Of a stretch of DNA of 64,000 bases, positions 52,526 through 56,728 are shown one piece after another. Position 1 is the stretch's first letter. The number at the start of each line of letters is the position of its first letter. A program made the translations under genes and the position numbers. The stretch covers positions 1 through 64,000 of the forward strand of contig SCSM01000045.1 of the NCBI GenBank assembly GCA_004322215.1, in the 5' to 3' direction. Origin of the DNA: Bacteroidota bacterium. GTDB lineage: Bacteria > Bacteroidota > Ignavibacteria > Kapaibacteriales > UBA2268. The notes under the pieces were generated by a model. The model had not been told where the DNA came from. It was given only the letters and a program-made list of their open reading frames with translations, and made no database searches.

Positions 52526-53395
52526 ATGAAAAAATTTGTATTATCAATAACGATAGTATCGTTTGTATTTTCATTCTCAGTTCTCCAAGCACAGAACTTT
52601 TTCACTTATTTGTCATCGCTGAAACTGCCGAATCAACTTGAATTTTGCGGTGAAAAAATCCCGCTCGATATTCCCGAAGTGAAGGAACGTGCAGAGCGTG
52701 AATTTTATTTATTGATGCAGCAACCGGGACAAATAATACTTTACATAAAGCGTTCGGGAAGATATTTCCCAATTTTCGAGAAAATCATTAAAGAGAAAAA
52801 TCTACCTGATGATTTGAAATACTTATCGGTAGTAGAAAGTGCATTGTATATGTCACGTTCATCGAAAGGTGCTGTGGGGCTCTGGCAATTCATGCCGGGT
52901 ACAGCACGTAGTTATGGATTGCAGGTTGACGATTACGTTGATGAAAGACGTCATCCCGAAAAAAGTACGGAAGCAGCACTCGAATACCTGAAAGACGGTT
53001 ACAAACAGCACAAGTCCTGGATTTTATCTGCTGCCGGATATAATATGGGCAATACGAATGTCGCTTCGCATCTCGATTTCCAGAACGGCAACAGCTTTTT
53101 CGATTTATTTCTGAACGAGGAAACTTCGAGATATATTCTGAGAATTGTAGTAATAAAGGAGATAATGTCCAATACCGATAAATACGGTTTCAAGATTGCA
53201 CAAAGTGAAAAGTACAAGCCGGATAATATAAAATATATCGAATGTAACGAAGAAATTCCAAACCTCTCGAAATGGGCATCAGACCAGGGAACAACATACA
53301 AAGACGTGAAAATTCTCAATCCCTGGCTCCTCGACAAGAAGCTCCCGAAGCCCTCCAAAGGAGATTCGTATAAGATAGCCGTACCTGGAAAATAA
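52526..53395 (+). CDS. Membrane-bound/periplasmic lytic transglycosylase (SLT domain)
   Basis: Peptidoglycan-cleaving enzyme of the MltD type, 289 residues. Signal peptide MKKFVLSITIVSFVFSFSVL. The SLT domain spans about 75-210, with catalytic glutamate in LSVVESALYMSRSSKGAVGLWQF, then MPGTARSYGL and ILSAAGYNMGNTNV. The C-terminal part (about 235-289, YKIAVPGK at the end) looks like one remnant of a LysM module. Full MltD has more LysM repeats, so this is a short form. Confidence 0.9.
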   Translation: MKKFVLSITIVSFVFSFSVLQAQNFFTYLSSLKLPNQLEFCGEKIPLDIPEVKERAEREFYLLMQQPGQIILYIKRSGRYFPIFEKIIKEKNLPDDLKYLSVVESALYMSRSSKGAVGLWQFMPGTARSYGLQVDDYVDERRHPEKSTEAALEYLKDGYKQHKSWILSAAGYNMGNTNVASHLDFQNGNSFFDLFLNEETSRYILRIVVIKEIMSNTDKYGFKIAQSEKYKPDNIKYIECNEEIPNLSKWASDQGTTYKDVKILNPWLLDKKLPKPSKGDSYKIAVPGK

Positions 53396-53448: not shown

Positions 53449-54423
53449 TTATTTAAGTTTCTTCCTCCATATCTCGTGGAACCCTCCTATTTCCCCATCA
53501 ATATATTCAGTAAATAAATATTCTCCGTTTCCCGCAAGCATAAATGTCGGAAATTTCTCAGAACTGAAATCAAGTGCAATGGATTTGTTATATATTGATG
53601 ACTTGCCAACCCCAAAGTGGCTCCATCCCGCTACAACATAAAGGTTTTCATTGTCAATATAAATATTCCATATATGTTCAGAGAAATTCTTTTTGAACCA
53701 CTCCCAGGTTATACCTCCATCTGATGATTTAATTATCATTCCGTCATTACCTACAATCCATATATCATCATTCTTAAAAAGGATATTATTAATATCCTCA
53801 CCATTGATGTTTGTCAGTATTTTCCAGGATAAACCGCCATCGAACGTTTTGTAAATCCTGGAATCTTTATTTTTTACATTTTTATTAGCTACCTTTACAT
53901 ATAAGGGGCAGCACAAGATATATCCTTCTTCACTGTTTTTCATCTTTATTTTTTTCAATTTAAAACCTTGCGTAAAAAAGATTGAATCCCAGGTTTTGCC
54001 TCCATTACTTGTCCGAAATACAACACCATTATCCGAACCGGCTAATCCTGTATTATTATCAATGAAGCTGATTGCTTTTAAATCATATTTTGAATCAATT
54101 GCAAAATCAAAGTATTTATTTTCTTTTGAATCGTATTTGATAATTGTTCCTTTATGACCGCAAATCCAGATGTTCGACTCATCAATAAAGCTGATACCCC
54201 ACAACTGTGCATCTGTTCCGATATAGACTTCCTCCCACGTCTGACCGGTATCTTTCGATATAAAAAAGAAACCATTATTTCCTGCTCCTGTTATTATATT
54301 TTTCCCATAAGTTTCAAGTGCCCATAAAGGTGCAGGTCCATCAGAATGATACACAAGCTCCCAATTATTTTGTGCAAAAAGTAATGAGCAATTTATTAAC
54401 AATATAAAAAGTAATTTTTTCAT
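53449..54423 (-). CDS. Secreted Ycf48/BNR-like propeller protein without sorting tail
   Basis: 324 residues from the ATG at 54423, with GGGAG six bases upstream. Signal peptide MKKLLFILLINCSLLFAQ. Repeats of about 45 residues include ISKDTGQTWEEV, FRTSNGGKTWDSI, YKTFDGGLSWKIL and IKSSDGGITWEWF, a seven-bladed propeller like Ycf48 and photosystem-repair-like proteins. It ends EIWRKKLK with no sorting tail, so it may stay in the periplasm. It follows the anti-sigma-like gene directly and is probably part of that operon. Confidence 0.85.
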   Translation of the reverse strand: MKKLLFILLINCSLLFAQNNWELVYHSDGPAPLWALETYGKNIITGAGNNGFFFISKDTGQTWEEVYIGTDAQLWGISFIDESNIWICGHKGTIIKYDSKENKYFDFAIDSKYDLKAISFIDNNTGLAGSDNGVVFRTSNGGKTWDSIFFTQGFKLKKIKMKNSEEGYILCCPLYVKVANKNVKNKDSRIYKTFDGGLSWKILTNINGEDINNILFKNDDIWIVGNDGMIIKSSDGGITWEWFKKNFSEHIWNIYIDNENLYVVAGWSHFGVGKSSIYNKSIALDFSSEKFPTFMLAGNGEYLFTEYIDGEIGGFHEIWRKKLK

Positions 54424-54434
54424 TTTCGTCTCCC

Positions 54435-56060
54435 TCAATTAACAATAATTCTTTGTGTTGCCATTTCGCCCTGAGTTGTCTTTATTGATAATATATATAT
54501 TCCCGAACTTACATCGCTGATATCAATTTGAATTTTATGTTTGCCGGCTTCTAATGTTTTTTTCTTTACAAGATTACCTACAAAGTTCCCGGAAAAGTCG
54601 TGAATATCTATCGTTATCTCCCGGTCTTCTGTCAAATTGAATGTTACATTAGATACATTATATGTTGGATTCGGATATATTTTTTCTATAGTTACAGCAC
54701 CGGAACTTATTTTGCAGACATCCAAATATGACTTTCCCCTTATTTCTTCGCATGCTTGAGCAGCAGTAAGTACACCGTTCTTAATTTTTTGTATTACTTC
54801 CATCTCATTTTTTAATGGAATGCTGTACCTTTCCGATAATCTGCTAATTAATTCATCTGTAGGGACAAACCAAAATACTATCCTCTCGATGAGTTTTGAT
54901 TTTTCAAATTTTATCTCGAGTGGTATTAATTCAGCAAAACTAATATTTGTCCAATTCGTTCTAACTGTAAATATCGGACTTTCATATAAAATATCTTGTA
55001 CTTTTCTTTCTATGGGGTTGTATTTAAAAGCGTAAGCAACAGGATAAATCTTGGAATATGATTCCTTGCTCCAGCCAGTATAATTGACCAACTCTTTTTT
55101 GAATCCTATATTTGATTTTTCTTTGAGTTCTTCAATTTGTTCCTGTGTTAAACCCAGTATCTTCGGTTCACGAGACCAAATACAAACCATCCTCGATAGT
55201 GTCACTTCCTTCCCGTCTATTATTTCAGTTACAATCGAATCATCCATAGTATATCCTTGCAATTCATAAATTTCATCCCGGGCAGGATTATACTGGTAAT
55301 TCAAATCAAATGAATAATGTCTTCTTACAAGAAAATTCTCACCTGTAGTCGGATATCCTGTCTTGAAATACGGATATACTTTATAGCTGTAATGATAGCC
55401 GTTGTCATTTCTGAAAGGAATAGGATGAATCCTGTTGAATTCTTCTGTATTAAATTCCAATTTATCATCATTACAGGTTATACCGATATTTTTCAATTCA
55501 TCATTGGTTAATTCTAATATCGTAACTCCGGGTATGGCGTCTCCGCTTGTTGTTATTTTAAGTTTTGCAGGTTCGAGTAAGTCAATTCCATCTTTGTAAA
55601 CTATTTTTACCTCAAAACCAGAAGAGTTGCTAAGAACCTTATCGAAAGGCCTCCTGATTTCACCATTCTCATCAACTTTTGTTATGTATTGATTTGATCG
55701 CTCCTCATTCAAATTTTGTTCCCCTTCATTTAATTCTGTCGAAGAACTTTTTAACTCGTTCATTGAATAAAATTGTGGTGAATTATTTTCATTCTTCATC
55801 TCAACTTTTTCTGATGTTGCACTACCGGTAAATTTCTTACTCTCATTTGTTGTGTTACCTGTTTGAACAGAAGAATTAATCACCAGGTATGCTACAATCG
55901 AAATAATTAAAGTAGTCATAATTAATAGTCCTTTGAATTTTGTTACATTTTTTGGTTTTTTTCTGTTGAACAATGCAGTTAAATCTTCCTCTGAATAAGG
56001 CAATGAGCCGTCAATCAGCAGTTTTGCTTTTTTAAAATAATTATCAAGCTCTTTCTTCAT
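54435..56060 (-). CDS. Membrane anti-sigma-like protein ending in a type IX sorting tail
   Basis: 541 residues from the ATG at 56060, overlapping the sigma gene by 17 bases. Residues 1-43 are short, charged and cytoplasmic (KKELDNYFKKAKLLIDGSLP), in the position of an anti-sigma domain. One helix follows (about 44-61, GLLIMTTLIISIVAYLVI). A long extracytoplasmic part has ILELTNDELKNIGI and further beta-rich sequence. The last 85 residues, from IEKIYPNPTYNVSNVTFNL to MATQRIIVN, form a clear type A sorting domain. A sorting tail on a non-cleaved membrane protein is odd. The anti-sigma role is inferred from overlap and topology; no conserved anti-sigma motif was seen. Confidence 0.75.
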   Translation of the reverse strand: MKKELDNYFKKAKLLIDGSLPYSEEDLTALFNRKKPKNVTKFKGLLIMTTLIISIVAYLVINSSVQTGNTTNESKKFTGSATSEKVEMKNENNSPQFYSMNELKSSSTELNEGEQNLNEERSNQYITKVDENGEIRRPFDKVLSNSSGFEVKIVYKDGIDLLEPAKLKITTSGDAIPGVTILELTNDELKNIGITCNDDKLEFNTEEFNRIHPIPFRNDNGYHYSYKVYPYFKTGYPTTGENFLVRRHYSFDLNYQYNPARDEIYELQGYTMDDSIVTEIIDGKEVTLSRMVCIWSREPKILGLTQEQIEELKEKSNIGFKKELVNYTGWSKESYSKIYPVAYAFKYNPIERKVQDILYESPIFTVRTNWTNISFAELIPLEIKFEKSKLIERIVFWFVPTDELISRLSERYSIPLKNEMEVIQKIKNGVLTAAQACEEIRGKSYLDVCKISSGAVTIEKIYPNPTYNVSNVTFNLTEDREITIDIHDFSGNFVGNLVKKKTLEAGKHKIQIDISDVSSGIYILSIKTTQGEMATQRIIVN

Positions 56061-56553
56061 CGTCAATCCCCATCAATTGTGATAATTTCTTTTTGCCTAA
56101 TGCAAGGCGAGATTTAACAGTTTCCTCACTGACTTTCTGAATCTCTGCAACTTCCTTTCTCGAAAATCCTTCAATATTGTGAAGGATTAATGCTTCCTTT
56201 TGTTCTTCAGGAAGTTTGTTCAGGCATTCATAAAGCAGTGAAATATCCGTTATGATATCAGCAGAAAGATTTTGAACGAAAAGGCTATCCAACTCGACAT
56301 TGACAAATCTTGCCGAATCCTTCTTTCTTTTCAGCTTATAGTATATGCGGCTGGATATTGTGAACAAGAAGCTGAGAAATGCTTTCTCATTCGATAAGCT
56401 ATTGAATCCTTCATAAGCTGAAGCGAGTGTTTCTCCAAGCAAATCCTTAGCAAACTCCCTATTCTTAGCCATAAAAAGACAGTAGCGCCAAATATTATCC
56501 TTTACTCCGCTATACAACTGAATAAACCGTTCCTGCTTTTCTTTCTGCGTCAT
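56044..56553 (-). CDS. ECF-type RNA polymerase sigma factor
   Basis: 169 residues with sigma region 2 (IWRYCLFMAKNREFAKDLLGETLASAYEGF, and FLSFLFTISSRIYYKLKRKK) and region 4 (CLNKLPEEQKEALILHNIEGFSRKEVAEIQKVSEETVKSRLALGKKKL). No extra domains. The 3' end overlaps the downstream membrane protein gene by 17 bases, the usual layout of a sigma/anti-sigma pair. The promoter lies in the gap to 56803 and may be autoregulated. Confidence 0.94.
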   Translation of the reverse strand: MTQKEKQERFIQLYSGVKDNIWRYCLFMAKNREFAKDLLGETLASAYEGFNSLSNEKAFLSFLFTISSRIYYKLKRKKDSARFVNVELDSLFVQNLSADIITDISLLYECLNKLPEEQKEALILHNIEGFSRKEVAEIQKVSEETVKSRLALGKKKLSQLMGIDDEERA

Positions 56554-56728
56554 TCAAAAAACAATTGGTACCAAAACAATGTAGTAAGTGCAATATTATC
56601 GAAAAAAGGGTTAAACAATAATTATTTTTTTTGCATAAAGGTTCATTTTCCTTGGCACAATTATTGTTCAATTAATCATGTTAGCGGTGAGTTCATAAAA
56701 CCGCAGATTTTTTGCCGTGCTCATGGTC

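Follow-up and report, generated by a model that had tools for sequence, protein, structure and literature searches.

The sigma factor gene and its T9SS-tailed partner

The stretch of DNA analysed, referred to here as the window, comprises 64,000 nucleotides of a Bacteroidota bacterium genome (GenBank assembly GCA_004322215.1, contig SCSM01000045.1, positions 1 to 64,000). On its minus strand, a gene for an extracytoplasmic function (ECF) sigma factor (56044-56553) is directly followed and overlapped by a gene (54435-56060) for a membrane protein that ends in a type A sorting tail of the type IX secretion system (T9SS), and this position next to a sigma gene is the one looked for in an anti-sigma factor gene. 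The open reading frame (ORF) of the partner has an ATG at 56060 and an in-frame TTG at 56066. The two genes and the regions of the partner protein are as follows.

56044..56553, minus strand: ECF sigma factor, 169 amino acids (aa) (Sigma70_r4_2, E 7.6e-17; TIGR02937, 66.2 bits, cut-off 42.9)
54435..56060, minus strand: T9SS-tailed membrane anti-sigma-like protein, 541 aa, its start overlapping the sigma gene
55932..56060, minus strand: residues 1-43, predicted cytoplasmic sigma-binding segment with two short helices (AlphaFold helices 2-14 and 24-32)
55875..55934, minus strand: residues 43-62, single transmembrane helix (hydropathy; AlphaFold helix 46-62)
55566..55868, minus strand: residues 65-165, low-confidence tether (AlphaFold confidence score, pLDDT, under 50 over residues 36-161)
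54942..55565, minus strand: residues 166-373, variable middle region with a conserved LxLTxxELxxIG motif (alignment, AlphaFold model)
54690..54941, minus strand: residues 374-457, conserved pre-tail module LIPV...LWYxPTxEFxxxLPERY...C...C (alignment of 26 rows; pLDDT 73-89 in blocks of ten)
54438..54680, minus strand: residues 461-541, T9SS type A sorting domain (PF18962, TIGR04183)

A sequence-only reading of the window had proposed this layout, with a short cytoplasmic segment, one membrane helix and a type A tail encoded by a gene overlapping that of the sigma factor, and it was borne out by the ORFs, hydropathy, the AlphaFold model and matches to PF18962 and TIGR04183. One hydropathy helix was found in the protein, with ~40 residues before it. 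The only hydrophobic stretch begins near residue 39-46 (from hydropathy, without a signal-peptide program), and as it starts after ~40 residues a signal peptide in place of the anchor was rejected. Among 15 complete tail-bearing ORFs from the same genome, a hydrophobic stretch was found at residues 1-4 in eight and later in three, and none reached the threshold in four. A Pfam scan of the N-terminus matched no known anti-sigma domain, and the scan of the protein gave no match to FecR up to E 1; we infer that residues 1-43 bind the sigma factor.

Outside the membrane, the tether is the least conserved region (7-10% identity to four full-length relatives), and in the variable middle region the Pfam scan found no family above its cut-off. 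The pre-tail module, located directly before the tail, is the most conserved stretch outside it. One module Cys is invariant in all 26 alignment rows and a second, judged by eye in the printed rows, is set further on where a row has Trp; from the alignment, the pair suggests a periplasmic disulphide. The first half of the module (profile positions ~3-53) is present two to three times per protein in G139:C8 (locus L121), G126:C73 and G021:C119 (G, C and L numbers denote genomes, contigs and loci).

The tail of the window protein matched PF18962 with E 3.1e-14 (53.4 bits, cut-off 27) and TIGR04183 with E 1.5e-11 (44.1 bits, cut-off 23), and both models were covered over their full length, reaching the last residues of the protein. 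In the AlphaFold model it forms a confident beta-sandwich. A fold search with the module and tail alone returned the T9SS tails of PorU, mirolase, RgpB and RemA (Z scores of 9.6 and 9.4 for the PorU and mirolase tails, respectively) among many unrelated immunoglobulin-like (Ig-like) domains with similar scores, and the fold alone therefore cannot prove a sorting tail. The sequence-only reading had held that a generic Ig-like fold would speak against a sorting domain. An Ig-like fold was indeed found, but this does not discriminate, because known T9SS tails share that fold. A search of the tail sequence against solved structures gave nothing under E 0.001.

The genome encodes at least 150 sorting tails over the cut-off (150 of 353 candidates scored). 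It also carries T9SS machinery, including SprA, PorU (836 bits, cut-off 420) and four PorV-family genes over the cut-off, and SprA was found in all 178 good genomes of the class sample.

Conservation of the sigma/tail pair

With at least 150 tails in the genome, a single tail beside a sigma gene could be due to luck. The first search, with the window protein up to the start of its tail as query, covered 54 genomes of the family including its own and matched 15. Each of the 31 extended loci has an ECF sigma gene upstream of the partner; the distance is mostly no more than 25 bases, and 259 in one case. A profile of the module then matched 33 of 197 genomes of the class, and in a phylum-wide draw 18 of 395 genomes were matched, all 18 inside the class (up to 12 candidates scored per genome). 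As the first query ran to the first residue of the PNP motif of the tail, and the module profile through the whole of YPNP, the sequence used in these searches was not quite tail-free.

A sigma ORF was found upstream in 69 of the 70 relatives collected, and the two genes overlap in 45 of these 69. Three cases were left out of the 70, namely L091 (interrupted frame), an unrelated sigma pair that L064 holds in addition, and the ORF that comes first in L139, which is truncated at the side of the contig. L115 was scored as paired, its nearest intact sigma ORF being 1003 bases off and a nearer sigma reading having one stop. Found via the region before the tail, 68 of the 70 relatives matched PF18962 and 65 matched TIGR04183, each at E 0.01 or better, which is the threshold used here and for the 39 partners below in place of the curated cut-off. 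A P-[NSD]-P motif is present near the C-terminus in 69 of 70, and exactly one hydropathy helix was found in 69 of 70. A simple positive-inside count fits 55 of the 70 and does not fit 15. The NCBIfam anti-sigma model NF052375 was matched by two of the 70 (best E 9.5e-4). The sole relative without a sigma gene, L124 (2253-3125), consists of the module and tail with a signal-peptide-like start and is possibly a secreted relative.

The named relatives are metagenome-assembled genomes labelled Ignavibacteriae, Candidatus Kapaibacterium and Chlorobiota, among others. The pair was found in 16 of 18 named loci; L158 has the module and tail without a sigma gene and L159 was a false hit.

One group of sigma factors

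The sigma factors paired with the tailed proteins form a single group. In a phylogenetic tree, a 100/100 branch separates 68 partner sigmas from 19 other ECF sigmas encoded in the window's genome. A sigma profile built from the first loci scored 38 held-out partner sigmas at 117-207 bits and the 19 other sigmas at 88 bits or less. Three sigmas of the group were found in the window's genome at E 1e-26, all with tailed partners (L031, L072 and L111), and a search of the order found sigmas passing E 1e-26 in 76 of 123 genomes. Chance placement of a common domain beside a sigma gene was rejected on the pairing in 69 of 70 relatives, the tails in 68 of 70 and the single sigma group, and conservation of the pair likewise disfavours luck.

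Exchange of the outer end

Forty new loci, hand-picked across genera rather than drawn at random, were fetched from the sigma side. The masked L304 was excluded from the 39 partners examined, and L303, which is cut by a contig end, was kept and scored as a miss. PF18962 was matched in 24 of the 39, a barrel-like end was assigned in eight and an SLT transglycosylase domain was found in one. Of the other six, L275, L278 and L291 are tail-like by eye but under the threshold, L303 is the contig-cut case, and L302 and L306 are unmatched. The sequence-only reading had allowed that it would fail if most homologues lacked the tail; with these 24 partners and the 68 relatives above matching PF18962, that is not what was found.

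The same N-terminal part precedes all three kinds of end. A profile of the N-terminal segment and helix, built from the tailed proteins, found all eight barrel-ended partners (E 5e-9 to 4e-4) and the SLT partner (E 5e-10), whereas for the nine barrel-like partners that belong to other sigma groups of the window's genome the best value was E 0.03, and for real decoys 0.1. The window protein had been among the 150 decoys and was left out of the count, and some of the decoys were barrel-like partners of other groups. In a second tree, which included 70 sigmas, those linked to tails, barrel-like ends and the SLT domain and those with unmatched partners were together, separated (100/99) from 12 others. 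The eight barrel-linked sigmas were located at four places among the tail-linked ones, indicating at least four changes on the tree, of which three are forced by well-supported branches: L280 with the tailed L079 (99/98), L285 with the tailed L286 (96/87), and five barrel-linked sigmas as one group (100/99). Given this scatter, one anti-sigma chassis seems, from the sequence comparisons, to have undergone repeated replacement of its outer end. Phe is the last residue of all 17 barrel-like proteins and of none of the 70 tailed ones, though the former figure is partly circular because terminal Phe was a sorting cue.

The sigmas of L302 and L306 form one well-supported pair in the tree; their partners are membrane proteins and possibly a further kind of partner.

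A natural fusion and other domain variants

In genome G578, the sigma factor and its partner were found in one ORF of 840 residues (L307:268-2787), in which a sigma domain (residues 36-200) is followed by the anti-sigma segment (240-309), one helix, a PPIC-type prolyl isomerase domain (531-619), the module (669-764) and a tail-like end (760-832). The genome of L307 is a draft, and the ORF could reflect misassembly. If the ORF is real, the sigma factor and the envelope part would be one machine, with the sigma factor inside and the C-terminus outside the inner membrane. The T9SS translocon of Flavobacterium johnsoniae has a prolyl isomerase subunit of unknown function (PMC10994853; this and the other papers cited are drawn on through selected passages), and the apparent parallel with the PPIC domain is noted without weight.

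A TonB C-terminal domain was found between the helix and tail in L112:2479-4482 (E 7.9e-20) and L113:2397-4331 (E 5.5e-17). Genome G028 encodes six of the T9SS-tailed anti-sigma-like proteins, ranging from 449 to 772 residues.

Promoter motif and neighbouring genes

Two further features of the apparent operon were identified.

53449..54438, minus strand: Ycf48/BNR-type exported protein, third gene of the apparent operon (PF14870, E 1.8e-16; no sorting-tail match)
56584..56611, minus strand: putative self-controlled sigma promoter, ACCCTTTT-N13-CACTTAC, upstream of the sigma gene

The motif is common to the window sigma gene and four full-length relatives in one register. In its strict form, it has one exact site in each of the five genomes, and this site always precedes the sigma gene; when two mismatches at most were tolerated, the motif was no more frequent than a reversed control. 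A relaxed form was found upstream of 34 of 110 sigma genes of the clade, compared with a mean of 0.68 in shuffled sequence (50 rounds, maximum 3); the other strand gave none. This excess is partly selected because the pattern was shaped after the data were seen. The relaxed form is also present upstream of three barrel-linked sigmas (L288, L292 and L293). In the window's genome it occurs at nine sites, versus 11 for the reversed control; two are before sigma genes of the clade, one is intergenic before a gene with a Sec-type start (C16:52877), and six are inside ORFs. No T9SS gene was recognised behind the relaxed motif in this genome, where further true sites may escape detection because the third clade sigma gene (L072) has a variant that the pattern misses. 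The simplest reading of these sites is that the sigma factor controls itself and may have a small regulon.

The Ycf48/BNR-type gene starts directly after the gene for the tailed protein, and a third gene that looks similar by eye is next in L032-L035 and L053. Near the operon, an SLT transglycosylase gene (52526-53395, plus strand) encodes a protein with 46% identity over 273 residues to the C-terminal part of L297:2693-4036, a clade partner from another genome, in which the SLT domain is fused to the same anti-sigma segment.

Proposed mechanism

The features observed are a conserved architecture, membership of the partner sigmas in one group, repeated replacement of the C-terminal end, the sigma fusion and the motif shared upstream of the sigma genes. 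On the preferred reading of these, the window protein is probably an envelope-spanning ECF anti-sigma factor with its outer end addressed by the T9SS sorting tail. Residues 1-43 would hold the sigma factor in the cytoplasm, the single helix would anchor the protein in the inner membrane and the disordered tether of ~100 residues would span the periplasm. The SprA-PorV translocon would recognise the tail, and the C-terminal part would be kept at, or carried to, the outer membrane or the cell surface. A signal at the outer end would then lead to release of the sigma factor, which would go on to transcribe its own operon; the signal may be that the tail undocks, that the powered translocon pulls on it, that a ligand binds or that the protein is cleaved. 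Docking at the translocon, the trigger, and proteolysis or pulling as the relay are proposed steps. The claim of the sequence-only reading that an anchored, anti-sigma-like protein carries a conserved sorting tail is supported by the tailed and sigma-paired relatives, and the SprA, PorV and PorU genes are present.

Sorting tails have been taken as marks of exported cargo, and in this entire group of regulators such a tail is retained on a protein that has its anchor in the inner membrane and is linked to a sigma factor. This may connect the T9SS directly with transcription, in bacteria represented here mainly by metagenome-assembled genomes. No description of a sorting tail on an anti-sigma factor was found in the titles, abstract starts and consulted passages of the papers listed in searches of an open-access library, a scope that leaves outside most subscription papers and all bioRxiv preprints.

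Several observations weigh against this reading. Type A tails end with a near-invariant, functionally important Lys (PMC10994853), but at the corresponding position, before the last hydrophobic strand, 68 family tails have 54 Arg, six Lys and eight neither, and the window protein has Arg. In contrast, 33 cargo ends from its own genome have 20 Lys, no Arg and 13 neither. In the fetched flanks, mostly from other genomes, 77 anti-sigma tails have 60 Arg, 10 Lys and seven neither, and 18 cargo tails have nine Lys, two Arg and seven neither; as the rows are inter-related, these figures describe a pattern and not a count of events. By sequence, the family tails are an Arg-bearing subtype, and engagement with the translocon therefore cannot be assumed. 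Several tails are also below the curated Pfam cut-off (four of 10 scanned matched at E 0.01 yet were under it), and that of the fusion protein L307 was matched by a custom tail profile alone (E 3e-4) and not by Pfam at E 0.01. For the partners in L302 and L306 there is no match to the tail, nor to the N-terminal profile. The barrel class was judged by eye, including terminal Phe, together with weak strand alternation and one OMP_b-brl match at E 0.03; this tentative barrel reading was not confirmed by Pfam over the cut-off or by a sequence search of the PDB, in which a profile of the barrel-ended partners gave no match to solved structures. Finally, a tethered substrate might jam the translocon.

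Alternative explanations

The sequence-only reading had gone further and proposed a built-in sensor of T9SS status, in which the tail probes the translocon and its free, blocked or pulling state is relayed to the sigma factor to adjust secretion. In favour of this possible role, a sorting tail is a transport signal and not a passive anchor. Substrates are held on PorV inside SprA until they are extracted (PMC10994853), so a tethered one would feel force, the tail-bearing PorA acts upstream of PorXY-SigP in Porphyromonas gingivalis (PMC7712824), and the family tails form an Arg-bearing subtype. However, other partners on the same chassis have a barrel-like or SLT end in place of the tail. Such swaps suggest that the end serves as an address in the envelope and is not devoted to probing the T9SS. 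The full-match promoter is located solely at the sigma operon in the five genomes and the relaxed form precedes no recognised T9SS gene in the window's genome, and the six proteins in G028 are more than one status sensor needs. A dedicated sensor in this strong form is therefore doubtful.

Proteolysis is a usual route of release for membrane anti-sigma factors, and it is conceivable that a site-1 cleavage frees the ectodomain, which then becomes ordinary T9SS cargo, the tail merely disposing of or displaying the fragment. The tail follows the membrane helix and would be periplasmic if the N-terminus is cytoplasmic, as the L307 fusion would suggest. This explanation is nonetheless unlikely, as barrel-like ends on the same chassis are unlike disposable fragments and the tails mostly differ from cargo at the functional Lys. 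That the tail is a generic Ig-like domain which no longer engages the T9SS, and serves in dimerisation or ligand binding, would fit the fold search, which ties T9SS tails with unrelated Ig-like domains, the Arg mostly found in place of the usual Lys, and the tails under the Pfam cut-off. Yet two sorting-tail models were matched by nearly all of the relatives and P-[NSD]-P lies near almost every C-terminus, making loss of the T9SS connection very unlikely. The lack of a known anti-sigma domain at the N-terminus would also allow that the protein has no anti-sigma role and is an unrelated membrane protein that shares a transcript with the sigma gene by chance. This is scarcely credible, as the pair is kept in all but one locus with one sigma group, a natural fusion of the two exists, and one N-terminal profile spans three kinds of C-terminal end.

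An extension of the preferred reading, that of an envelope-spanning anti-sigma factor addressed by its tail, can be put forward tentatively. Type A substrates stay bound to PorV inside SprA until an input of energy extracts them (PMC10994853). If the tethered tail docks in SprA-PorV, powered extraction could pull on it and convert the work of secretion into release of the sigma factor, and the exchangeable ends (tail, barrel and transglycosylase) could be modular sensors of tension or contact for secretion, the outer membrane and the cell wall, respectively, on one chassis. This idea is rather speculative and more probably wrong than right.

Comparison with known systems

In FecR-type signalling, an anti-sigma factor in the inner membrane is linked to a machine in the outer membrane. 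The window protein resembles this in outline but has no FecR match, and the link would be a tail in the same chain and not a TonB-dependent transducer. Like T9SS type A cargo it has a full type A tail; unlike cargo, the family has an internal anchor helix after ~40 residues and no N-terminal signal peptide, and mostly carries Arg where cargo has the near-terminal Lys.

In P. gingivalis, PorA is also a T9SS-tailed protein that feeds an ECF sigma pathway, PorXY-SigP (PMC7712824). PorA differs in having a signal peptide and a surface location and in not being an anti-sigma factor, and its route leads via a two-component system to control of T9SS genes (PMC7712824).

The closest likeness is to the Dma proteins of Bacteroides thetaiotaomicron, which share the N-terminal anti-sigma segment, the single helix, the long disordered tether, a C-terminus destined for the outer membrane and an adjacent ECF sigma gene (PMC13088901). 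Dma proteins combine this plan with a barrel, and Dma1 controls its sigma factor (PMC13088901). The partner sigmas of the Dma family are of group ECF21. In Dma3, its own sigma factor is fused at the N-terminus, as in L307 (PMC13088901). The C-terminus of the window protein is a T9SS sorting tail, whereas that of Dma is a beta-barrel, and the window protein is therefore not assigned to the Dma family, although its mode of action may be similar. In the partners of nine more ECF sigma genes of its genome (L191, L197, L198, L200, L201, L202, L204, L205 and L206), an N-terminal segment is followed by a single helix that begins at residue 89-114, and the barrel-like C-terminus ends in Phe; these partners are apparent Dma-type anti-sigma factors. 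As the Dma plan is the same layout with a barrel, the tail is taken as a T9SS-dependent version of that outer address. With their constant chassis and repeatedly swapped outer end, these proteins form a natural series for studying how the outer membrane is sensed by anti-sigma factors, which is also at issue for the Dma proteins.

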